A stretch of 64,000 nucleotides of DNA from assembly GCA_913056345.1 (NCBI GenBank), contig CAJXMH010000007.1, forward strand, positions 1 to 64,000. Reading direction: 5' to 3'. The position numbers and the translations under genes are program-made. Each line of letters begins with the position of its first letter. Positions within the stretch are counted from its first letter, which is position 1. This document shows, piece by piece, positions 34,651 to 46,186 of this stretch. The notes beneath the pieces were generated by a model that was not told the origin of the DNA, did no database searches, and was given only the letters and a program-made list of their open reading frames with translations. This DNA comes from an uncultured Flavobacteriales bacterium (GTDB lineage: Bacteria > Bacteroidota > Bacteroidia > Flavobacteriales_E > Vicingaceae).

Positions 34651-34714
34651 CAGAGCTAATCCTAAAAAAGCAGTTATATGCTTTACTTTGCCTGCAAAAT
34701 ACAGCCTAAAGTTC

Positions 34715-36157
34715 ATGCAACGTAAGTTTGTCGGAAATCTCTTATTTGTCCTCTTTCTTAATTTACTGATCAAACCGTTTTGGATTTTAGGAATTGATGT
34801 CGCTGTTCAGAATAGGGTAGGAGCAGAAGACTATGGACTTTATAATTCCATTTTTGGGTTTTCGATCTTGCTCAATATCGTACTCGATTTTGGCATTACC
34901 AATTACAATAACCGCAACATAGCCCAGCATAACCATATGCTAAAGCGTTATTTTTCAGGAATATTCAACGTAAAGCTAATTCTTGGTCTGATCTATTTTT
35001 TAGTCACCTTATTGTTCGGCTTGATTATCGGATACGGGGAAAAGGCCATCAAGCTTCTGTTCATCTTAGCCATCAATCAGTTTTTAGCTTCTATGATCTT
35101 GTATTTACGTTCTAACATTTCAGGCTTGCACCTATTTAAGCTCGAGGGCCTTTTGTCAATTTTGGATCGTACGCTTATGATCTTAATTTGCGGAACCTTG
35201 ATTTGGGGAGGTATCGCTGAGCAGTCTTTTCAAATAGAATGGTTCGTATATGCTCAATTTGTCTCATACTCACTAACGGCTTTTGTAGCTTTTCTAGTAG
35301 TCTTGTCTAAAGCCAAGTTTTTTAAGATAAAATTCGATTGGATCGTATTTCGATTGATCATCAAACAAAGCTTACCATTTGCATTGCTTGTTTTATTAAT
35401 GTCTTTCTATTATCGCCTTGACGCAGTAATGATTGAACGGCTACTACCTGACGGTAAATACCAAACTGGGGTTTATGCTCAGGCCTACAGGTTATTGGAG
35501 GGATTCAACATGTTTGGCTATTTGTTCGCAGGTTTGTTATTGCCTATTTTTTCAAGAATGATCAAAGAAAAGCAGGCTGTAAGCGGTTTGGTAAGAACTG
35601 CCTTTAATTTAATTTTTATACCCGCTTGTGCTGTGGCTACTGTTTCGCTTATTCATCCTCAATCAATCATGGATTTGCTCTATTGGGAAAATGTAGAGGA
35701 ATCAGCTAAGGTATATGAAGTCTTGATGCTGTCTTTCGTTGCCATTGCTTTAACTTATATCTATGGTACACTTCTCACTGCCAATGGCAATTTAAGGGCT
35801 CTAAATAAAATCTCTTTAGTAGGCTTGCTTATTAACTTTGGTTTAAATTGGACCCTAATACCAAATTATGGAGCATTTGGGGCAGCTGTGGCAACCTTAA
35901 TCACCCAATGTGTAATCATTTTGCTGCAAATCATGACCGTAAAAAAGGAGTTTCAAATTGGTTATTCTAGTACTTTCATCATTAAAGCATCCTTATTAGC
36001 ACTACTTGGTTTAGGCTTTGCTGCCTTGAGCCGAGATTGGTTGGATTCTTTTATTCTTCATATTCTTTTGGTTTTTGTAGTGTTTGGAGCATTAACTTTT
36101 TTGTTAGGGCTTATAAAAATTAGTGAAATAAGGCAAATAATCAAACAAAGGTCTTGA
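34715..36157 (+). CDS. Polysaccharide flippase (Wzx/MATE-like)
   Basis: A 480-residue integral membrane protein with about 12-14 hydrophobic helices and the N-terminal signature of polysaccharide biosynthesis exporters (VGAEDYGLYNSIFGF, followed by FGITNYNNRNIA). It is predicted to flip lipid-linked oligosaccharides across the inner membrane. The open frame begins at TTG (34688), but the ATG at 34715 (MQRKFVGNL) is the likely start. First gene of a rightward flippase, Wzz, Wzz, ligase unit. Confidence 0.9.
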   Translation: MQRKFVGNLLFVLFLNLLIKPFWILGIDVAVQNRVGAEDYGLYNSIFGFSILLNIVLDFGITNYNNRNIAQHNHMLKRYFSGIFNVKLILGLIYFLVTLLFGLIIGYGEKAIKLLFILAINQFLASMILYLRSNISGLHLFKLEGLLSILDRTLMILICGTLIWGGIAEQSFQIEWFVYAQFVSYSLTAFVAFLVVLSKAKFFKIKFDWIVFRLIIKQSLPFALLVLLMSFYYRLDAVMIERLLPDGKYQTGVYAQAYRLLEGFNMFGYLFAGLLLPIFSRMIKEKQAVSGLVRTAFNLIFIPACAVATVSLIHPQSIMDLLYWENVEESAKVYEVLMLSFVAIALTYIYGTLLTANGNLRALNKISLVGLLINFGLNWTLIPNYGAFGAAVATLITQCVIILLQIMTVKKEFQIGYSSTFIIKASLLALLGLGFAALSRDWLDSFILHILLVFVVFGALTFLLGLIKISEIRQIIKQRS

Positions 36158-36209
36158 ATGGATGTAATCCAATTTGACTATTTTTGGCCTCTTTAATTTA
36201 AAGGGCATT

Positions 36210-37202
36210 ATGAGTCAAGGTGACTACGATATAAACTCCCAGGGAATAGTTTTCTTTATAAGAAAATGGAAATCGGTGTTGCTTACTACATCGATTTTGG
36301 CTTTTCTTATCTCAATGGCATTCTCATTCTTCATAGAGGATAAGTATAAGTCTTCAGTTGTTCTTTTCCCTTCTACTACTTCCTCTGTCTCAAGAGCTCT
36401 GCTTAATGATGAAAATTACAAAGAGAAAGATTTTCTTGAATTTGGAGAGGAGGAAGAGGCTGAACAAATGATTCAAATCCTTAAATCTGATGCCATTCGT
36501 CAGCATATTATAGAAAAATATGATCTGATGAACCACTATCAAATCGACCCTGAGAGTGAGTTCAAGCAAACCCAGTTATATAAAGAGTACGAGCGAAATA
36601 TTGATTTTTTCAGAACTAAATTCATGTCAGTTGAAATCGAGGTTCTAGATACAGATCCTGTTATGGCGGCTAACATAGCCAATGAAATAGCGGGCATGCT
36701 GGATTCTGTTAAAAATACGATGTTAAAGCGCGTTGCCCAACAAGCTTTTAAAATCGTAGAGAAAGAATACAAGACTTTGGTTACTGAGATCGATCAAATG
36801 GAAGACACCTTGAATCATATTCGATCTTTAGGAGTACAAGATTATGAGACCCAAGTAGAGGTTCTTAGCGACCAATATGGAGCAGCATTGGTTAAAAATA
36901 ATACAGCTGCTGCAAACAAACTGAACGCTAGGCTAGATACCCTTTCCAAATATGGAGGAAAATATTTGAGTCTTGTGCAACAGCTAGAGTACGAGCGAGA
37001 AAAACTCAGTGATATGCGTGAGATTTACGCAGAAGCAAGGGTAAATGCTGAAACAACCATAGATCAAAAGTTTGTGGTAAATAAAGCATATCCGGCTGAA
37101 AAGCCAACCTACCCAATCCGTTGGTTGATCATTTCGGTCTCGACGTTGGCAACCTTTTTATTTACTATGATCGTACTGATCCTTTTAGATCCCAAATCTT
37201 AA
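36210..37202 (+). CDS. Wzz-like chain-length/polysaccharide co-polymerase protein 1
   Basis: A 330-residue inner-membrane protein with membrane helices near both ends (about residues 22-42 and 303-325) and a large periplasmic coiled-coil domain, the PCP/Wzz topology. The segment YPAEKPTYPIRWLI just before the second helix is the usual Pro-rich motif. It lacks a C-terminal tyrosine kinase domain. The upstream TTG (36174) is rejected in favour of the ATG at 36210. It probably sets the length of the exported glycan. Followed after 3 bases by a second Wzz-like gene. Confidence 0.85.
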   Translation: MSQGDYDINSQGIVFFIRKWKSVLLTTSILAFLISMAFSFFIEDKYKSSVVLFPSTTSSVSRALLNDENYKEKDFLEFGEEEEAEQMIQILKSDAIRQHIIEKYDLMNHYQIDPESEFKQTQLYKEYERNIDFFRTKFMSVEIEVLDTDPVMAANIANEIAGMLDSVKNTMLKRVAQQAFKIVEKEYKTLVTEIDQMEDTLNHIRSLGVQDYETQVEVLSDQYGAALVKNNTAAANKLNARLDTLSKYGGKYLSLVQQLEYEREKLSDMREIYAEARVNAETTIDQKFVVNKAYPAEKPTYPIRWLIISVSTLATFLFTMIVLILLDPKS

Positions 37203-37205
37203 GTT

Positions 37206-38171
37206 ATGAGTAGTACTAAAGGGAAAGATTATTTTGATAGTAGCATAGACATTATTGGCTTTGCTGTAAGGCAATGGAAACTATTATTGGGTGTAGCGAT
37301 TATTTCAGGAGCGATGGCTGCAGTTTTCTCGGGCCCCCAGTTTATTGCACCAAAATTTACTTCTGAAGCAGTTATTTATCCTGCTAATTTAGGTGGATAT
37401 TCTGGAGAAACCCGATTGGAGCAAATGCAACAATACCTCGAATCAAATGTAATTAGAGATTCTATTATCAAGCGATTCAAGCTCTATGAAGAATATGAAA
37501 TTGATTCAACCAAACCTACTTCGAAAGCGTCACTAATTGAACGCTATTCTGAGCATGTAGGGTTTGAAGAAACTGAGTTTGAATCGATCAGTGTTTCTGC
37601 AACATCTAATAATCCTGTGAAAGCCAAAAAAATGGTTGATGCTATTCTTGATCTTTTAAATGAAACTATTAGACAAACAGAAAGAGAGAAGTATTGGGAA
37701 ATAGTTCTTATAAACAAGCGATTGCTTGATAATAAAAAAGTGCAATTGGATAGCCTGCAGGATTTGATACGAGAATACAGTACAAAGTATGGTTTGCTCG
37801 ATTATATTGAGCAATCAGAAGAGGTAACTGAAGGTTACGTTCAATTTCTGCTTTCAGGAAAAAAGGGCAAGGATTACGAAGAGGTAAAGGCTTTATACAA
37901 AAACTTAGAAAAGCACGGCAGAGCATTTCACAACATGCACGCCCAGCTAAATACTGTTAACGATGAATATATGAATCGCTTACACGGTTATGAGCATGCC
38001 ATGAAGGATTACACCAAAGTCCAAACCTATACCAATGTTTTAGTAAAACCCGAAGTTCCTGATAAGAAGACTTATCCAATCAGATGGTTGATCGTGCTTG
38101 GTTCTATGGCTGCAGCAACTGGATTTACTTTTGCACTTTTATTAATCTTAGGATACCACAAGAGTAGCTAA
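37206..38171 (+). CDS. Wzz-like chain-length/polysaccharide co-polymerase protein 2
   Basis: A 321-residue PCP-type protein similar in plan to its upstream neighbour: a membrane helix at about 25-45, a Glu/Lys-rich coiled-coil periplasmic region, the Pro-rich segment VPDKKTYPIRWLI, then a terminal helix (about 295-315). No kinase domain. The pair likely arose by duplication and has diverged strongly in the middle. Its stop overlaps the ligase start in TAATG. Confidence 0.85.
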   Translation: MSSTKGKDYFDSSIDIIGFAVRQWKLLLGVAIISGAMAAVFSGPQFIAPKFTSEAVIYPANLGGYSGETRLEQMQQYLESNVIRDSIIKRFKLYEEYEIDSTKPTSKASLIERYSEHVGFEETEFESISVSATSNNPVKAKKMVDAILDLLNETIRQTEREKYWEIVLINKRLLDNKKVQLDSLQDLIREYSTKYGLLDYIEQSEEVTEGYVQFLLSGKKGKDYEEVKALYKNLEKHGRAFHNMHAQLNTVNDEYMNRLHGYEHAMKDYTKVQTYTNVLVKPEVPDKKTYPIRWLIVLGSMAAATGFTFALLLILGYHKSS

Positions 38172-39619
38172 TGGATAGCTATTTGAAATCAAATTGGGTG
38201 CTTATTTTAAGCTTCCTATTTATTATGACTAATACTGCTTTAATCGCACTAGAGCAATATTGGTTTGCGGCGGTTCCCTTTGCTTTGGCCTTGCTCATGT
38301 TAGCCTTTGTGGCCACTGATAAATTAATGTGGGTAATTGTTTTCACCACTCCATTGTCACTCAATCTTGAAGAATTGGAGTTTGGAGGTATTGGAATGTT
38401 TCTACCCACTGAACCTTTACTTTTTGGGGTCTTGATCATTTTCTCATTAAAGCTATTGTATGATCGCACCTTCGATAAAGAGGTGCTCAAACACCCTTTA
38501 AGTATTGCGATTTTAATCAATTTGTCTTGGCTTTTTATCACCACTCTTACTAGCACAATGCCAATTGTTTCAATTAAGTTTCTACTGGCCCGATCTTGGT
38601 TTGTTGTGGCCTTTTTCTACATTGGTTCGCAATTATTTAAAAAAGAGCAGAATATTAGAACCTTTTTTTGGCTCTATCTTATACCCCTGACAGGCGTGGC
38701 TATCTATACTTTTATTCACCATAGCTTGTACAGTTTTGAAGAAAGGCCTGCCCATTGGGTTATGCAACCCTTCTTTAAAGACCACACTGTTTATGGAGCA
38801 GTACTTGCCATGATGTTTCCTACCCTACTTTGTCTAATTTCATTAAAAAGATATCGTCGTTTTAGACCCATTTTAGTGATTATGCTCACTGCCTTGAGCC
38901 TTGGTATCATCTTTTCTTATGGCCGGGCAGCCTGGATTAGCTTAGTAGCTGCTTTTGCCGTTTCTCTTATTTTCTTGCTGCGTTTAAAGACTTCATTCGT
39001 GCTTTCATCCGCAGGGTTTTTAGCTATTGTAGCAGGTATTTTCTGGTCAGATATTGTTGATGTTTTAGAGGAAAATAAGCAAGACTCAACTTCTGAGAAT
39101 TTAACGGAACATGTTCAATCTATCACAAATATCTCCACAGATGCTTCTAATTTAGAGCGGATCAATAGATGGAATTCGGCCATTGAAATGTTTGAGCGTA
39201 AGCCAATATTTGGTTGGGGACCTGGCACTTACGCTTTTCAATATGCTCCTTTTCAATCCAGCGAGGACTTAACAATCATAAGTACCAATGCAGGAGATAT
39301 GGGTAATGCACACTCTGAGTTTATTGGTCCCTTGGCAGAGGCAGGTGTTTTTGGTACTTTGACTTTTGCGCTTATCATTATACTATTTTATGTGAGAGCC
39401 TCTAAGCTATACTTTAGGCTGCCAAAAGGAGAAAAGCGCACAATTGTGTTTTACACCATACTGGCTTTCACTTCATACATCATCAATGGTACACTAAACA
39501 ATTTTTTAGATACAGATAAGGCATCTGTTCCCTTTTGGGCCTTTATTGCTATTATTACCGTGCTTGATCTACAGAATAATAAACAGCTTAAGCAAGAAAC
39601 TCAGCCCCAAGCAGCGTAA
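38171..39619 (+). CDS. O-antigen ligase/polymerase family membrane protein
   Basis: A 482-residue integral membrane protein with about 11-12 hydrophobic helices and a large extracytoplasmic loop (about residues 300-375). The Wzy_C-type motif NRWNSAIEMFERKPIFGWGP lies in the loop and the conserved His in GNAHSEFIGPLAEAG. It is predicted either to polymerise or to ligate surface polysaccharide. Coupled to the second Wzz-like gene by one base. Its last 32 bases overlap the end of the convergent phosphatase gene. Confidence 0.85.
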   Translation: MDSYLKSNWVLILSFLFIMTNTALIALEQYWFAAVPFALALLMLAFVATDKLMWVIVFTTPLSLNLEELEFGGIGMFLPTEPLLFGVLIIFSLKLLYDRTFDKEVLKHPLSIAILINLSWLFITTLTSTMPIVSIKFLLARSWFVVAFFYIGSQLFKKEQNIRTFFWLYLIPLTGVAIYTFIHHSLYSFEERPAHWVMQPFFKDHTVYGAVLAMMFPTLLCLISLKRYRRFRPILVIMLTALSLGIIFSYGRAAWISLVAAFAVSLIFLLRLKTSFVLSSAGFLAIVAGIFWSDIVDVLEENKQDSTSENLTEHVQSITNISTDASNLERINRWNSAIEMFERKPIFGWGPGTYAFQYAPFQSSEDLTIISTNAGDMGNAHSEFIGPLAEAGVFGTLTFALIIILFYVRASKLYFRLPKGEKRTIVFYTILAFTSYIINGTLNNFLDTDKASVPFWAFIAIITVLDLQNNKQLKQETQPQAA

Positions 39620-40814
39620 TATCATCTTCCACTTCTGATTGCTTTTTAAGGCTCATGGCAAGCGCCTCAATTTGGGAAACGATTGCCTCAATTGATTGTG
39701 CATGTTGGAATAAGTGTTGGATTCCTGCAATACCTATTTGTCTTCCTTTCTGTTCAAGCTCTGTTAAGCCATCCGTAAAGCATACTAATTTATCTTCAGC
39801 TTTTACTTTGATAGATGCCGTTTCAATAGACGGTAGTTTGTCGAACATGCCTAGAACAGTGCAGCCTTTTTTCAACTCCACATTTTCATTTTCTCTTATT
39901 AGAATAGCAGGGTGGTGTCCTGCGTTAAGGTAGTTAAGTGTTTTTGTCTCTGCATTGTAAATAGCAATGAATAGGGTTATGAATTTCTCGTACTTTGCTG
40001 ACTCAATAATTTTTTGATTACATGCTAGTACAAGCTGTTCCAAACTACTTTTAACATTGATCAAAGCCCTTAGGTTGGCTTGGAAGTTTGCCATAAGTAA
40101 AGCAGCTGAAAATCCTTTTCCAGAGACATCTGCAATACAGAGGGCAGTTCTATTTTGGTCTATTTTGATTACATCGTAGTAGTCACCCCCAACTTCATTG
40201 TGTGGTTTGTAAATTGATTTGATACAGAGCTTCTCTTCCATGGGCAGTTGCCTTGGAAAAAGTAAGCTTTGCATTTTTTGTGCAAGTTCAAGCTCTTTTT
40301 TAACTTCAACTTGCTTGATAAATTCTTTATTGAGCCTTTTGTTTTCTAAGGCCACCACAATAATGTTAGCAAGGGTTTGAATAAATTTTAAGTGCTTTAT
40401 TATTGGGCTGATCTCAATTTTTTCACCATCAAGATCTGCAAGAAGCAAGTAAGCAAGGGGCTTTTTTTTATGAAAGACAGGAATTACAATATCAAATACT
40501 GCAAGCGACTTATTGGATTCGGAGTTTAGCACTTCAATGCTCGGGTAGTCTTGGGCTATTTGCTCAAGATCAACCTGTTTTGCTGCCTTCTCTTTAACTC
40601 CCTCCACTAGCGAGAGTTGCCATTTCTTATCAAATGTATAAAGTGCGAATTTTCCAATTAAGAGTTCTACTTTTAACGCATGAGTAAGTATTGCAAATAG
40701 TTCCTGCTTACTCTTGTTGTGATTGATCGAGTTCGTGATTTCCAACAAGGTGTTTAGCTTCAGGTTTGAAAGCTTTAAACGACCTTTTGCCCGTTTAGTC
40801 TTTTCTTCAGTCAT
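39588..40814 (-). CDS. GAF-like/PP2C (SpoIIE-type) serine phosphatase
   Basis: A 408-residue cytoplasmic protein. A GAF-like sensor region covers about residues 20-165, a short coiled coil about 165-190, and a PP2C/SpoIIE phosphatase domain 190-408. Metal-binding motifs are GGDYYDV, IADVSGKGFSAALLMA and FTDGLTE. Such enzymes usually dephosphorylate anti-sigma antagonists in partner-switching pathways. No anti-sigma kinase or STAS gene is near. The start overlaps the LpxD-paralogue stop by 8 bases, so it is the last gene of the lipid A operon. Its 3' end overlaps the ligase gene by 32 bases. Confidence 0.9.
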   Translation of the reverse strand: MTEEKTKRAKGRLKLSNLKLNTLLEITNSINHNKSKQELFAILTHALKVELLIGKFALYTFDKKWQLSLVEGVKEKAAKQVDLEQIAQDYPSIEVLNSESNKSLAVFDIVIPVFHKKKPLAYLLLADLDGEKIEISPIIKHLKFIQTLANIIVVALENKRLNKEFIKQVEVKKELELAQKMQSLLFPRQLPMEEKLCIKSIYKPHNEVGGDYYDVIKIDQNRTALCIADVSGKGFSAALLMANFQANLRALINVKSSLEQLVLACNQKIIESAKYEKFITLFIAIYNAETKTLNYLNAGHHPAILIRENENVELKKGCTVLGMFDKLPSIETASIKVKAEDKLVCFTDGLTELEQKGRQIGIAGIQHLFQHAQSIEAIVSQIEALAMSLKKQSEVEDDITLLGAEFLA

Positions 40815-41736
40815 TCTTTTGTTGCTTGATGAAGTCGGGAAGTCTCCGCAATGCCGCCATTTCGCGATATTTTTCTTTAAACTCTACAGCAGGAGCTCCT
40901 GCATAAACTTTACCTGCTTCAAGATCTTTTGAGACACCACTTTTAGCGGATACAACTACTTGGTCACCAATTTCAATGCCTGAGGTTATGCCTACCTGGC
41001 CCCAAAGGGTTACATTATTGCCAATGGTTACGCAGCCAGCTATGCCTGTATGCGCAGCTATCAAACAGTTGTTTCCAATCTCCGTATCGTGGCCGATTTG
41101 AACAAGGTTGTCTATTTTGCTGCCCTTGCCAATTTTGGTAACCGCTGTTACCCCTCGGTCAACACTGCAGTTGGCCCCAATCTCTACTTGGTCCTCGATA
41201 TGCACTGAACCGGCAGAAAGCAAACGATCATAGCGATCAGGTCTTTTTTTGTAATAAAAGCCGTTCGACCCAATCACAGAACCTGCTTGAATGATAACCT
41301 CATTACCTATTTTACAATGGTCATGAATAACCACATTGGGATATATGATGCAATTATCACCTATGCTTACTTCTTTGCCAATCACTGCCGAAGGATGAAT
41401 TTTACAGTTTTTTCCTAAGGTATAGGTATCTTCTTTTAAGAAGAAAGCAAAGGGATTAAAATAATTCAATAAAAAATTAAAACTTCTAAAAGGATCTTCG
41501 CAAACTACGATTCCTTTCCCTTTCTCTACCTCTACTTCTTTATTGATTAGAACAACCGTTGCAGCAGATTGTAGCGCTTTCTCGTAATATTTGGGATGAT
41601 CAACAAAAACAATATCCCCCTTTTCAACACGGTGAATTTCATTAATGCCATTTACCTCTAGCGTTTCTTCTCCTTTGAAAGGAGCTTCTAGAAGATCAGC
41701 AAGTTCTTTTAGTGATAGGGAGCGGTTAAATTTCAT
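40807..41736 (-). CDS. LpxD-like acyltransferase paralogue
   Basis: A 309-residue protein with an LpxD-like N-terminal domain (about 1-100) and a left-handed beta-helix of hexapeptide repeats (105-285), ending in a short helix. The catalytic His position is kept in NLVQIGHDTEIG (His216), but the DGFGF motif of true LpxD is NGFYY here, and it is 41 residues shorter than the LpxD at 45134. It may N-acylate a different substrate or a different lipid A position. Bacteroidota often carry such a second copy beside efp. It is 3 bases after efp. Confidence 0.82.
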   Translation of the reverse strand: MKFNRSLSLKELADLLEAPFKGEETLEVNGINEIHRVEKGDIVFVDHPKYYEKALQSAATVVLINKEVEVEKGKGIVVCEDPFRSFNFLLNYFNPFAFFLKEDTYTLGKNCKIHPSAVIGKEVSIGDNCIIYPNVVIHDHCKIGNEVIIQAGSVIGSNGFYYKKRPDRYDRLLSAGSVHIEDQVEIGANCSVDRGVTAVTKIGKGSKIDNLVQIGHDTEIGNNCLIAAHTGIAGCVTIGNNVTLWGQVGITSGIEIGDQVVVSAKSGVSKDLEAGKVYAGAPAVEFKEKYREMAALRRLPDFIKQQKND

Positions 41737-41739
41737 TTT

Positions 41740-42303
41740 CTATTTAACTCGTTCTGAATAAGAGGCTGTTCTAGTGTCAATTTTGATTCTATCTCCTTCG
41801 TTTATAAATAGAGGAACCCGAACTTCAGCTCCTGTTTCAACTTTGGCAGGTTTGGTTGCATTGGTTGCTGTATCTCCTTTAATACCTGGCTCTGTATAGG
41901 TAATCTCTAATTCTACAAAAGGGGGTAAGTCACATGCTAACGGCCTTTCTTCTTCAGCGTGGAACATGATCTCTACATCGTTCCCTTCTTTTAAGAACTG
42001 AGGAGCATTGATCATCTCTTCTTGCAGGAAGGTTTGTTCGTAGTTTTCTTTGTTCATAAAGTGATAGCCGCTATCATCTTGAAATAGGTATTGGTATTTT
42101 CTCGTTTCGATTCTTACCGGCTCTATTTTAACTCCTGAATTAAAGGTGTTGTCAATAATCTTTCCCGTGCTCAAGCTTTTTAGCTTGGTTCTTACAAATG
42201 CTGGTCCCTTCCCTGGCTTTACATGTTGAAATTCCAATATGGTGTACAAGTCATTGTTGTACTTCATGCATAAACCGTTTTTAAAATCTGCTGTAGTAGC
42301 CAT
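41740..42303 (-). CDS. efp: Translation elongation factor P
   Basis: Relieves ribosome stalling at consecutive prolines. The 187-residue three-domain protein shows the KPGKGPAF loop with Lys32 at the modifiable tip, the ESxG-equivalent LDLP-like [16 protein letters not shown] region and the C-terminal signature RTASYSERV. Normal length. An own promoter element may lie at 42320-42327. No efp-modifying enzyme gene is visible here. Confidence 0.97.
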
Positions 42304-42342: not shown

Positions 42343-42966
42343 TTAATTGATTTCTTTAAAGTCAGACAAATTTAAGCTTGCTGTTGGAAGAGGGAGTTCC
42401 TTATCTTTTTCATTTGTAGCCACCAAAATCAGGCGGTTATTGCGATGTTTTTCAATTAAATGCTGATAAAAATCAATTCCCTTTATATCAAGATTAGAAC
42501 AAGGTTCATCCAATAAAACTATGGGTGTATCGCTAAGCAAGGCTAAGCCTAATTTAAGACGTTGTTTCATGCCTGAGGAGAATTGATGTATGTATTTATC
42601 TCCCGACTGTGATAGGTAAGTTTCTTTCAAGAAGAAGTCGGCGTCCGCCTGATCAATCAATGGCTTGAAGTGCAGACTTAATTTTAACAATTCATTCAGG
42701 GTAAGCTGCTCAGGCAAGTTTTGATAGGGTGCTGCAAAGCTGATGTATTTGTATGCTTCCTCTGCAGGAATCTTCACCTTTGCCTCAAAATGAACCGTGC
42801 CCTCTGTTGCTAATTCTGCCTGCGCTATAATTTTCAATAGAGTAGATTTACCACTTCCATTTGCTCCTAATAGGCCAAAAAGACCATTTTGCAAGCTAGC
42901 GTCAACTTTTCTAAAAATCCATTCCTTTTTGAACCTTTTGCCAATATTAGCTAGTTCAATCTTCAT
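42343..42966 (-). CDS. Orphan ABC-transporter ATP-binding protein inside the lipid A operon
   Basis: A 207-residue single ATPase domain with P-loop GANGSGKST, Walker B TPIVLLDEPCSNLD, and the unusual signature FSSGMKQR in place of LSGGQ. A compact CcmA-like ATPase of this kind normally needs a membrane partner, but none is encoded nearby. It lies one base downstream of the lpxA stop and 39 bases before efp, so it is carried in the lipid A transcript. A role in envelope lipid export is possible but unproven. Confidence 0.88.
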   Translation of the reverse strand: MKIELANIGKRFKKEWIFRKVDASLQNGLFGLLGANGSGKSTLLKIIAQAELATEGTVHFEAKVKIPAEEAYKYISFAAPYQNLPEQLTLNELLKLSLHFKPLIDQADADFFLKETYLSQSGDKYIHQFSSGMKQRLKLGLALLSDTPIVLLDEPCSNLDIKGIDFYQHLIEKHRNNRLILVATNEKDKELPLPTASLNLSDFKEIN

Positions 42967-42967
42967 T

Positions 42968-43741
42968 TTAGCTGATTGGCCCTCGAATAATGCCTTTTTC
43001 GGAAGTTTTGATAAAATTTAAAATTTGACCTTTCTCTTCACTCTCATCAAAATTGGTCTCAATTTCTTCAAGCGACTTGCTGAGGTTGGTTCCCATAACA
43101 TAAATTTTCCTGTAGATGTCTTCTATGGCAGTAATGACCTCATTTTCAAATCCCCTTCTTCGTAAACCAATAGAATTTACTCCTGCGAAGCTCAAAGGCT
43201 CTCTGGCGGCCTTGATGAAAGGGGGTACATTTTTCCTTACTAAGGAGCCCCCTGCTACAAAAGAATGCGCGCCTATGGTTACAAATTGTTGAACTGCAAC
43301 CACTCCCTCTAGGATAGCATAGTCTTCTATTGTGACGTGTCCCGCGATGTTAGCTGTATTTGCAAGAATAACATGATTGCCGACTTTCACATCGTGAGCT
43401 ACGTGAACGTAAGCCATAAGCAGGCAATGACTGCCTACCTCTGTTTTAAATCGATCTTTAGTCCCGCGGTTAATGGTAACACACTCTCTTACTGTAGTAT
43501 AATCACCAATCACGGCAGTGGTTTTTTCACCTTCGAATTTCAAATCTTGCGGGATAGCTGAAACGACTGCTCCTGGAAATATTTTACAATTTTTCCCAAT
43601 CCTTGCTCCATCCATGATGGTCGCATTTGGTCCAATCCAAGTGTTATCTCCAATTATAACATCTCCCGCAATGTAAGCAAATGGTTCTATGGTTACATTA
43701 TTTCCGATCTTAGCATCTGGGTGGACAAAGTTCTGGTTCAT
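42968..43741 (-). CDS. lpxA: UDP-N-acetylglucosamine O-acyltransferase
   Basis: First step of lipid A synthesis, 3-O-acylation of UDP-GlcNAc. The 257-residue hexapeptide beta-helix protein has the catalytic His116 in VHVAHDVKVG, and a helical C-terminus (IEDIYRKIY). Length is close to E. coli LpxA (262). Its start overlaps the lpxC-fabZ stop in TAATG. Confidence 0.96.
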   Translation of the reverse strand: MNQNFVHPDAKIGNNVTIEPFAYIAGDVIIGDNTWIGPNATIMDGARIGKNCKIFPGAVVSAIPQDLKFEGEKTTAVIGDYTTVRECVTINRGTKDRFKTEVGSHCLLMAYVHVAHDVKVGNHVILANTANIAGHVTIEDYAILEGVVAVQQFVTIGAHSFVAGGSLVRKNVPPFIKAAREPLSFAGVNSIGLRRRGFENEVITAIEDIYRKIYVMGTNLSKSLEEIETNFDESEEKGQILNFIKTSEKGIIRGPIS

Positions 43742-45132
43742 TATGTGTTTTCTTTTACTATTTGAGCCATCAACTCTCCTTCTGCAACTAATTTATCTCC
43801 AACGAAAGCTTTAGCCATCATATTCACTATTCCTCGTCGAATAGGCCCCATTAAGTCGAGCCTAAATACTAAGGTATCGCCAGGAACAACTTTACGTTTA
43901 AATTTTACTTTATCGATCTTGAGAAAATAGGTGAGGTATTTCTCAGGTTCCTCTACGGTATTCAGTGCTAAGATTCCACCTGTTTGCGCCATCGCTTCAA
44001 TCTGTAATACACCCGGCATAACCGGAGCACCCGGAAAGTGTCCTTGAAAGAACTGTTCGTTCATTGTAACACTTTTCACTCCTACTACATGCGTATCGGT
44101 TAATTCAATGATCTTATCAACTAAAAGCATGGGGTAACGGTGCGGAAGAATTTTTTCAATACCATTTACATCATAGATGGGTTCTGCATTAGGGTCATAT
44201 TTGGGTGCCCTTTGTTTTCTCTGCTTAATTTCTTTTTTGATGATCTTTGCAAAATCAACATTCCCCTTGTGGCCGGGTCTTGCAGCAAGAATGTGCCCTT
44301 TAATTGGTTGGCCTACTAGTGCCAAATCACCTACAATATCGAGTAGTTTGTGCCTTGCAGGTTCATTTTGAAAATGAAGGTCTACATTATTTAAAACTCC
44401 AATTCCCTTAACTTCAACCTTAGGCTTATTGAGCAATTCAGCCAGCTCGTCCAACTTGTCTTGCGGCATTACTTTATCAACTAGCACTATTGCATTGTCC
44501 AAGTCACCCCCTTTGATGAGGTTGTTTTTGGCTAGGTATTCCAATTCTCTTAGAAAAACAAAAGTGCGGCACTTTGAAATGTCTTCTTCAAATTCACCTA
44601 GGTGATACATGTGCGCATGTTGGGTTCCAAGTACTTTAGAATTGTAATCTACCATTACGGTAAGTCTAAACTCATCTTGTGGAACTGCTAGCATTTCTGT
44701 TTGTCGGTCAAGATCCTCATAGGTGAGGTTCTCGTCAACAATAAAGTAATCTTTTTCTGCTTCTTGCTCTTGAATGCCCGCTGCCTTTAAACTTTCTAGA
44801 AAAAAATGGGCACTTCCATCTAAAATGGGTACTTCAGGTCCATCAATCTCTATCAGTAGATTATCAATTCCCATTCCATAAGCGGCAGCTAACAAGTGTT
44901 CCGTGGTATGCACACGAGCCCCATTTTGCTCCAAAGTAGTTCCTCTTGATGTATCTACTACATGATCTACATCTGCTTTGATCAAAGGTTTGCCTTCAAC
45001 ATCAATACGCTGAAAAACATAGCCGTGATTGTCTGGTGCAGGTTTAAAGGTAATGGTTGCTTTTTTTCCTGTATGTAAGCCTACTCCCTGAAGAGAAGCT
45101 TCTTGTTTAATGGTTTGTTGTTTGTCGCCCAT
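43741..45132 (-). CDS. lpxC/fabZ: Fused UDP-3-O-acyl-N-acetylglucosamine deacetylase / 3-hydroxyacyl-ACP dehydratase
   Basis: A 463-residue bifunctional protein characteristic of Bacteroidota. The LpxC half (1-305) has zinc ligands His79 (TTEHLLAA), His261 and Asp265 (HKLLD). The FabZ half (about 320-463) has LPHRYPMLLVDK, FFQGHFPGAPVMPGV with catalytic His365 and Glu379. The fusion joins the committed lipid A step with fatty acid elongation. It is 1 base downstream of lpxD and overlaps lpxA by one base. Confidence 0.97.
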   Translation of the reverse strand: MGDKQQTIKQEASLQGVGLHTGKKATITFKPAPDNHGYVFQRIDVEGKPLIKADVDHVVDTSRGTTLEQNGARVHTTEHLLAAAYGMGIDNLLIEIDGPEVPILDGSAHFFLESLKAAGIQEQEAEKDYFIVDENLTYEDLDRQTEMLAVPQDEFRLTVMVDYNSKVLGTQHAHMYHLGEFEEDISKCRTFVFLRELEYLAKNNLIKGGDLDNAIVLVDKVMPQDKLDELAELLNKPKVEVKGIGVLNNVDLHFQNEPARHKLLDIVGDLALVGQPIKGHILAARPGHKGNVDFAKIIKKEIKQRKQRAPKYDPNAEPIYDVNGIEKILPHRYPMLLVDKIIELTDTHVVGVKSVTMNEQFFQGHFPGAPVMPGVLQIEAMAQTGGILALNTVEEPEKYLTYFLKIDKVKFKRKVVPGDTLVFRLDLMGPIRRGIVNMMAKAFVGDKLVAEGELMAQIVKENT

Positions 45133-45133
45133 T

Positions 45134-46186
45134 CTATTTCTCCGAATGCGATTTAAGGTTTGCTAGCTCTTTCTCAAGAGCGTCTATTTTTTCATTTAGT
45201 TCAGGTAGCTTTCTGAATAAAACATAAGAACGCTTATAATCTCCAATTCCAATAGCTGGTGAACCCTGAACAATTGAGTTTTCAGTTTTAATGCTGTGCC
45301 CGATGCCACTTTGGGCTGCAATTTTTACTCCGTCGGCTATTTTAATATGCCCTACTATACCAACCTGACCACCGATCATGCAATTTTTTCCAATCTTAGT
45401 AGATCCTGCAATGCCTGTTTGAGCAGCAATTACGGTGTTTTCTCCAATTTCTACATTATGAGCAACCTGGATCAGGTTGTCAAGTTTAACGCCTTTTCGA
45501 ATGATGGTTGATCCTAAAGTTGCACGGTCAATGCAAGTATTGGCACCTATTTCAACGTGGTTTTCAATAATCACATTCCCAATTTGTGCTACTTTATGGT
45601 AATTGTTTTCGCTATTAGGCGCAAAACCAAAACCGTCTGCTCCAAGCATAACGCCTGCATGAAGAATGCAATCACTGCCTACTTTAGTTTCAGGGTATAG
45701 TTGAGCTCCTGAAAAGATCATGGTGTTTTCACCAACGGTGCAGTTGTCTCCAATACTGCAATTGGCAAAAAGTTTGACATTGTTTCCAATTTTAACATTC
45801 TCTCCAATGCTTACAAAGTCAGCGATGTATGTGTTTTCTCCAATTTCAGCTGTGGCGCTGATATTGGCAAATTTTGATGCGCCAGTCTTGTTGTATTTTA
45901 CTTGATTATAAAGTTCTAAAAGCTTGCCAAAACAGCTGTAAGCATCATCAACTCTTAAAAGCGTTACTCCTTCTTTTACGCTTTTTTCTAGCTTGAAATC
46001 ACGATTTAAAATTACGATCGATGCATCTGTTTCGTAGAGGTATTCGGCATACTTAGGATTGGCCAAAAAGGAGATACTGCCCGGCTTTCCTTCTTCTATC
46101 TTAGACACTGATGAAACTTCTGCATCAGGGTTTCCTTCAATTGTGCCTTCAAGAATTTCAGAGATTTGGCGGGCCGAAAATTTCAT
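45134..46186 (-). CDS. lpxD: UDP-3-O-(3-hydroxyacyl)glucosamine N-acyltransferase
   Basis: Third step of lipid A synthesis, N-acylation. The 350-residue protein has the uridine-binding N-terminal domain (1-100), the hexapeptide beta-helix (about 110-320) with the GADGFGF motif (about 182-188) and catalytic His243 in [12 protein letters not shown], and a C-terminal helix. Length is as in other LpxD proteins. It is the canonical copy, in contrast to the paralogue at 40807-41736. Confidence 0.95.

Follow-up and report, generated by a model that had tools for sequence, protein, structure and literature searches.

Introduction

Lipid A with a hybrid backbone of diaminoglucose and glucosamine (GlcN3N-GlcN) was found in Capnocytophaga canimorsus, whose lipid A is of low endotoxicity. 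It carries 16:0(3-OH) in amide linkage at position 3', i15:0(3-OH) in ester linkage at position 3, and i17:0(3-OH) at position 2 and as the primary chain at position 2' (Ittig et al., 2012; PMC3342949). This hybrid is also reported from Zunongwangia profunda, where it is a minor component (PMC9470727). In Acidithiobacillus, GnnA and GnnB produce the nucleotide sugar UDP-GlcNAc3N (PMC3342949). A second acyltransferase was expected in C. canimorsus, and Ittig et al. (2012; PMC3342949) named “lpxA prime”, a gene of the lpx operon, by best BLAST hit. These papers, and PMC6286764 for the roles of LpxD residues, are cited here from the accessible parts of their text. A literature search returned no description, in the accessible parts of the sources, of the LpxD paralogue analysed below.

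The paralogue, called lpxD2 here, lies in a window of 64,000 nucleotides, the whole stretch of DNA that was analysed. With LpxD of Escherichia coli (3eh0, 4ihf) and Chlamydia (2iu8) its product shares the N-terminal LpxD domain, the beta-helix, the catalytic His, the oxyanion Gly, the Asp that contacts the acyl 3-OH and the uracil clamp, whereas it is without the Asn and phosphate-His contacts, has Tyr-Tyr after the equivalent of E. coli F183, is shorter and falls in a separate clade. Its beta-helix superposes on the helices of LpxA, including Leptospira LpxA (3hsq); unlike LpxA, it has an LpxD-type N-terminal domain, scores below the cut-off of the LpxA profile and leaves the LpxA C-terminal domain unmatched. 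LpxD2 resembles lpxA prime in being put forward as a second acyltransferase connected with the GlcN3N unit of hybrid lipid A, but PMC3342949, in its accessible text, places lpxA prime in the lpx operon, whereas C. canis and C. felis have LpxD2 at another location. As in the Acidithiobacillus pathway named in that text, this genome is predicted to encode a MocA protein resembling GnnA and a DegT protein resembling WbpE/GnnB; here, by contrast, neither gene is linked to lpxD2 and the activities are predicted.

Results

The lpxD2 gene and its locus

The first-pass annotation had placed an LpxD paralogue at 40807-41736. These coordinates are correct and delimit an ORF of 309 aa on the minus strand which, as also noted there, is shorter than the true LpxD of the window (350 aa). 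The features of the gene and its neighbours are as follows.

40807..41736, minus strand: lpxD2, LpxD paralogue of 309 aa (ORF with ATG start; domain, profile, alignment and fold matches)
41440..41736, minus strand: N-terminal uridine-binding domain, residues 1-99, with the F44/Y50 uracil clamp and E33 kept (domain match, alignment; roles from the accessible text of PMC6286764)
41596..41598, minus strand: His47 codon, in place of LpxD Asn (Chlamydia N46, E. coli N44) (alignment and residue counts)
40885..41439, minus strand: left-handed beta-helix, about residues 100-284 (Pfam Hexapep, structure model, LpxA beta-helix superposition)
41251..41265, minus strand: NGFYY loop, residues 158-162, F160 corresponding to E. 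coli F183 (translation, alignment, residue counts)
41089..41091, minus strand: His216 codon, predicted catalytic base (E. coli H239) (alignment; 64/64 in the clade)
41002..41004, minus strand: Trp245 codon, in place of LpxD Gly/Ala (W in 61/64 of the clade vs. G in 67 and A in 12 of 80 LpxD)
40978..40980, minus strand: Gly253 codon, where LpxD has the phosphate-binding His (Chlamydia H284, E. coli H276) (alignment and residue counts)
41740..42303, minus strand: efp, elongation factor P, 3 bp upstream of lpxD2 (domain and profile match)
42343..42966, minus strand: ABC transporter ATP-binding subunit (domain match)
42968..43741, minus strand: lpxA (profile match)
43741..45132, minus strand: lpxC/fabZ fusion (profile match)
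45134..46186, minus strand: lpxD, housekeeping copy with DGFGF, 350 aa (profile match, tree)
39588..40814, minus strand: SpoIIE-type phosphatase, overlapping the lpxD2 end by 8 bp (ORF and domain match)

The genes are tightly packed; read along the minus strand, they are lpxD, lpxC/fabZ, lpxA, ABC ATPase, efp, lpxD2 and the SpoIIE gene. The assignment of the product to the LpxD type was borne out by Pfam matches to PF04613 (LpxD) and to hexapeptide repeats, and by the NCBIfam LpxD equivalog model TIGR01853, which accepts it at 279.9 bits (cut-off 242.5). His216, which the annotation had regarded as the retained catalytic residue, occupies in the alignment the position of the catalytic His in LpxD proteins of known structure. 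The translations likewise confirm NGFYY in place of the DGFGF of the LpxD at 45134-46186, to which LpxD2 is 32% identical. The NCBIfam LpxA model scored 84.4 bits, below its cut-off of 231.05, and the Pfam domain search gave no match to the LpxA C-terminal domain PF13720.

Beside the SpoIIE gene, window positions 34688-39619 hold genes predicted from sequence to be flippase-like, chain-length-like (two) and ligase-like; in several further families LpxD2-SpoIIE is followed downstream by the same set (clusters c3, c4 and c5). The ABC transporter ATPase gene (42343-42966), here between lpxA and efp, is likewise beside efp in loci L162, L165, L168, L169 and L181, and an ABC hit was present in only 6 of the 80 loci of named relatives described below.

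The AlphaFold model of LpxD2 has a mean pLDDT of 88, and its best fold match is LpxD (Foldseek E 6.3e-22; Z 28.1). Over the whole chain the rmsd is about 18 Å, but the beta-helix by itself superposes on LpxA at 1.3-1.8 Å in the best rows; the N-terminal domain is thus positioned differently in the model, or its position there is uncertain. With medians of 312 residues for LpxD2 and 346 for LpxD, the paralogue is about 35 residues shorter, which would be close to two 18-residue coils.

Distribution, neighbours and phylogeny

LpxD2 is present in 179 of the 247 sampled genomes of its own class and in none of the sampled genomes outside the class. At E <= 1e-60 it was counted in 171 genomes; this threshold missed 8 genomes in which the match is split in two pieces, so the counts use 179. 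Genomes G373, G387 and G388 were counted as LpxD2-negative. In a phylum sample of 148 genomes, matches of at least 276 bits were found in 24 genomes, all of the same class, and the next best match was 184 bits.

In a quick-method tree of 91 rows, LpxD2 formed a single clade (36/36 rows, SH-aLRT 100) on a long stem; housekeeping LpxD, whether of the class or from beyond it, grouped apart from this clade. Chance is excluded as the source of the observation. A recent local duplication as the origin of lpxD2 was rejected because the clade is class-wide. On these sequences, the TIGR01853 equivalog model gives the same name to two different clades, and members of the LpxD2 clade are listed as LpxD in databases.

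Some genomes of family f5 carry a third LpxD-type paralogue of 330-333 aa (L322, L323, L324, L325 and L327), with DGFGF/Y and without the FxxNPKY motif, which forms its own clade (SH-aLRT 99). The LpxD-like proteins of family f22, about 300 aa long (L320, L321, L346 and L347), did not give the pattern of the catalytic-His context.

The neighbourhood was compared in 80 loci of named relatives, whose titles assign nearly all of them to the Flavobacteriales or to unplaced Bacteroidota and some of which are short contigs, and in 36 further loci picked to spread across the families of the class. Near LpxD2, the 80 loci held LpxD in 70, LpxA in 72 and EFP in 73. The 36 further loci had lpx genes nearby in 7, EFP in 16 and SpoIIE in 14. 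The location in a lipid A operon that the first-pass annotation described thus holds for the window and for most Flavobacteriales loci, but lpx genes lie near LpxD2 in only 7 of the 36 loci from the wider class. Capnocytophaga canis and C. felis (L048 and L079) carry LpxD2 outside any lpx operon; the gene that precedes it there is presumably WbqC-like. We therefore dropped the equation of lpxA prime with lpxD2, and lpxA prime may be another gene.

Conserved and altered residues

Residue positions were set by alignment to Chlamydia LpxD, with roles taken from the accessible text of PMC6286764, and were counted in 64 LpxD2 and 80 LpxD from many families; one truncated LpxD2, the odd proteins of about 300 aa and the third paralogues were left out. 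The catalytic residues are conserved. The base His216 (E. coli H239), the oxyanion Gly234 (E. coli G257) and Asp209, which contacts the acyl 3-OH (E. coli D232), were each found in 64/64 LpxD2. So were Tyr50 of the uracil clamp and Glu33, a ribose contact in Chlamydia; the other clamp residue, Phe44, was kept in 62/64 and is Tyr in the other two. Since the catalytic residues are invariant in the clade, a dead paralogue was rejected, and LpxD2 is probably enzymatically active. The Gly of the acyl-pocket floor (Gly267) is common to LpxD2 (61/64) and LpxD (80/80), so nothing in these alignments points to a different chain length as the main change.

The acceptor contacts are altered. At residue 47, the site of E. 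coli Asn44 (phosphate and sugar contact), the listed letters among the 64 LpxD2 were H in 46, V in 9, I in 5 and L in 2. Residue 253, the site of the phosphate-binding E. coli His276, is His in 79/80 LpxD, whereas His is not among the four commonest letters in LpxD2, which were D (24), G (20), K (4) and T (4); the H276A mutation lowers the kcat of E. coli LpxD 32-fold (PMC6286764, accessible text). The site of Trp245 is W in 61/64 LpxD2, and G in 67 and A in 12 of 80 LpxD. Tyr161, the residue that follows the equivalent of E. coli F183, is Tyr in 64/64 LpxD2 as against Gly in 79/80 LpxD, and may fill the space of the 3-O-acyl chain.

The altered loop to which the first-pass annotation drew attention is real, and can be described more closely: NGFYY is a variant of DAFYY, the usual form in the clade, and of its five residues only Y161 is invariant across the 64 LpxD2. 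Judged from the alignments, the changes at residues 47 and 253, in phosphate and sugar contacts, tell more about specificity than the loop does. With the clamp, the base, the oxyanion Gly and the acyl 3-OH contact kept and the phosphate His and the Asn lost, the pattern suggests a UDP-sugar acyltransferase with an acceptor other than that of LpxD. The nucleotide and the 3-hydroxyacyl donor would be retained, and the sugar part of the acceptor would be altered.

Association with a GnnA-like gene

There are two MocA-type genes in the source genome. For one of them, C6:123874-124857, the top NCBIfam model was UDP-GlcNAc 3-dehydrogenase at 177 bits, far below the cut-off of 450, and so its GnnA identity is one that we infer. 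Against PDB sequences its product scored 178.7 bits with 7bvj, which we take to be Acidithiobacillus GnnA, and 67.3 bits with the next.

Among the 247 class genomes, the GnnA-like gene was found at E <= 1e-75 in 153/179 LpxD2-positive and 8/68 LpxD2-negative genomes, and at E <= 1e-30 in 173/179 and 27/68, respectively. Thus 6 of the 179 LpxD2-positive genomes gave no hit at 1e-30, and G153 likewise has LpxD2 and no GnnA hit. In the 13 families with both LpxD2 states, the gap in GnnA score was wide in 8, slight in 2 and absent in 3. The DegT gene (GnnB/WbpE-like) was present in 170/179 LpxD2-positive and 48/68 LpxD2-negative genomes; it does not follow LpxD2 closely, so it was set aside as support and served as a control. 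It was kept in 24 of the 27 LpxD2-negative genomes of the 13 mixed families, and gene decay there is therefore not general.

The state of the GnnA-like proteins was scored at 12 signature sites (GxGxxG, EKP, H/E/R of GHVER, and D...HD) with the C6:123874-124857 protein of the genome itself as reference. Sequences were picked from the listed matches, not at random. “Intact” stands for at least 11/12 sites, or all sites present in fragments, and “degraded” for at most 8/12; one degraded case is a fragment with 3 of 9 present sites. All 45 proteins checked from LpxD2-positive genomes were intact, distant ones included (32 + 13). Of 25 homologues checked from LpxD2-negative genomes, own family included, 12 were intact, 12 were degraded and 1 had lost both His. 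Within the class sample, where 17 of the 27 LpxD2-negative homologues found at 1e-30 were checked, the figures were 7, 9 and 1. Degraded versions occurred in families f44, f45 (genus g140) and f77 and in genus g88 of the own family.

In lineages with no LpxD2, loci L268, L270, L274, L277-L279, L282, L285, L287, L288, L290 and L291 hold GnnA-like MocA homologues whose frames are open but whose NAD-binding and catalytic sites are gone. From their sequences, these are apparently pseudoenzymes kept in several families.

Genus g90, of the own family, is without LpxD2 in 7 of 8 genomes. Five of these seven have a full-length GnnA homologue, intact in 5/5, one has it in two pieces and one gave no hit. 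Taken with the counts above, the pattern looks like a one-way dependence, in which LpxD2 is rarely found where an intact GnnA-like enzyme is missing and GnnA can outlast LpxD2. A phylogenetic independent-pairs test on an LpxD tree, with a sample enriched in exceptions, was not significant (median p 0.375); of 6 supported pairs, the two genes changed in parallel in 3.8 on average and in opposite directions in 1.2. None of 116 loci had a GnnA-like or DegT gene in the vicinity of LpxD2.

Discussion

The first-pass annotation had offered three options for the paralogue: acylation of another position, of another sugar nucleotide, or with an acyl chain of another length. Of these, the sugar nucleotide is favoured by the residue pattern and the GnnA-like association, and chain length, to which nothing points as the main difference, seems less likely. 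LpxD2 would be an N-acyltransferase built on a left-handed beta-helix and, like LpxD, presumably a trimer. Its N-terminal domain would still bind a UDP-sugar, and the enzyme would still use the catalytic His and a 3-hydroxyacyl donor. Its acceptor would differ from that of LpxD and would most likely be UDP-GlcNAc3N, formed from UDP-GlcNAc by the GnnA-like dehydrogenase and the GnnB-like aminotransferase. LpxD2 would add an amide-linked 3-hydroxyacyl chain to the 3-amine, and the product would feed the diaminoglucose unit of hybrid GlcN3N-GlcN lipid A. We infer the acceptor, the acylated position, the donor and the production of GlcN3N by this organism. That LpxD2 acylates the 3-amine of UDP-GlcNAc3N to build the hybrid diaminoglucose lipid A that has been reported in Flavobacteriaceae is a tentative assignment, to which we give somewhat less than an even chance.

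The GnnA association would be equally accounted for if LpxD2 were the 2-N-acyltransferase of the diaminoglucose branch, acting after LpxC on UDP-3-N-acyl-GlcN3N, with LpxA or a second LpxA acylating the 3-amine and LpxD serving the GlcN branch. This would keep both LpxD ancestry and N-acyltransferase chemistry and allow a role for lpxA prime (Ittig et al.; PMC3342949, accessible text), but positions 2 and 2' of C. canimorsus lipid A share the primary chain i17:0(3-OH), as one LpxD would give (same source), and it would be strange to lose the phosphate His if the 2-position geometry were unchanged; we regard this route as unlikely. Somewhat less probable still is an LpxD isozyme that acts on the usual UDP-3-O-acyl-GlcN and differs in acyl chain or expression. 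The score above the LpxD equivalog cut-off, the kept catalytic residues and the place of lpxD2 in the lpx operon here all agree with an isozyme, and Francisella LpxD1 and LpxD2 are reportedly such a pair. Yet the acceptor contacts are altered clade-wide while the pocket-floor Gly is the same as in LpxD, the H276A mutation costs the E. coli enzyme 32-fold in kcat (PMC6286764, accessible text), and the GnnA association would be left unexplained.

Two further readings move LpxD2 away from lipid A. If it transferred a short (acetyl) chain to UDP-GlcNAc3N or a related compound, it would serve a polysaccharide, like the beta-helix 3-amino-sugar N-acetyltransferases; Pcryo_0615 (8e62) and QdtC (3fs8) are among its fold neighbours, Trp245 might narrow the acyl channel, and in many families the gene lies away from lpx genes. 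The Asp for the acyl 3-OH in 64/64, the pocket-floor Gly in 61/64 and the lpx-operon location in most Flavobacteriales loci argue against acetyl transfer, and of the readings weighed here it is the one that we find most improbable. Alternatively, LpxD2 could be an acyltransferase for another lipid or envelope product, with the GnnA association arising from shared ancestry and joint loss in some lineages. The non-significant independent-pairs test, the lack of physical linkage to GnnA or DegT genes and the excess of EFP and SpoIIE over lpx genes as neighbours in the 36 wider loci speak for such a product. The joint patterns within 8 to 10 of the 13 mixed families, with DegT kept in 24/27, and the conserved uracil-clamp residues speak against it, and it too seems unlikely, if the least so of these alternatives. 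Some form of GnnA-dependent acyl transfer, whether to the 3-amine, to the 2-amine or of an acetyl group, is likely.

Acylation of the UDP-GlcNAc3N 3-amine would, if true, explain how these bacteria build the hybrid diaminoglucose-glucosamine backbone and fill a gap in hybrid lipid A synthesis. A dedicated UDP-GlcNAc3N 3-N-acyltransferase would then be an undescribed lipid A step spread through the whole class, a proposal that we put forward a shade more cautiously than the assignment itself. Many genes currently called lpxD would be misnamed, and LpxD2 would offer a single-gene marker by which GlcN3N lipid A could be predicted from genome sequences. Even with the acceptor wrong, LpxD2 would be a class-wide conserved acyltransferase with altered acceptor contacts, and directly testable.
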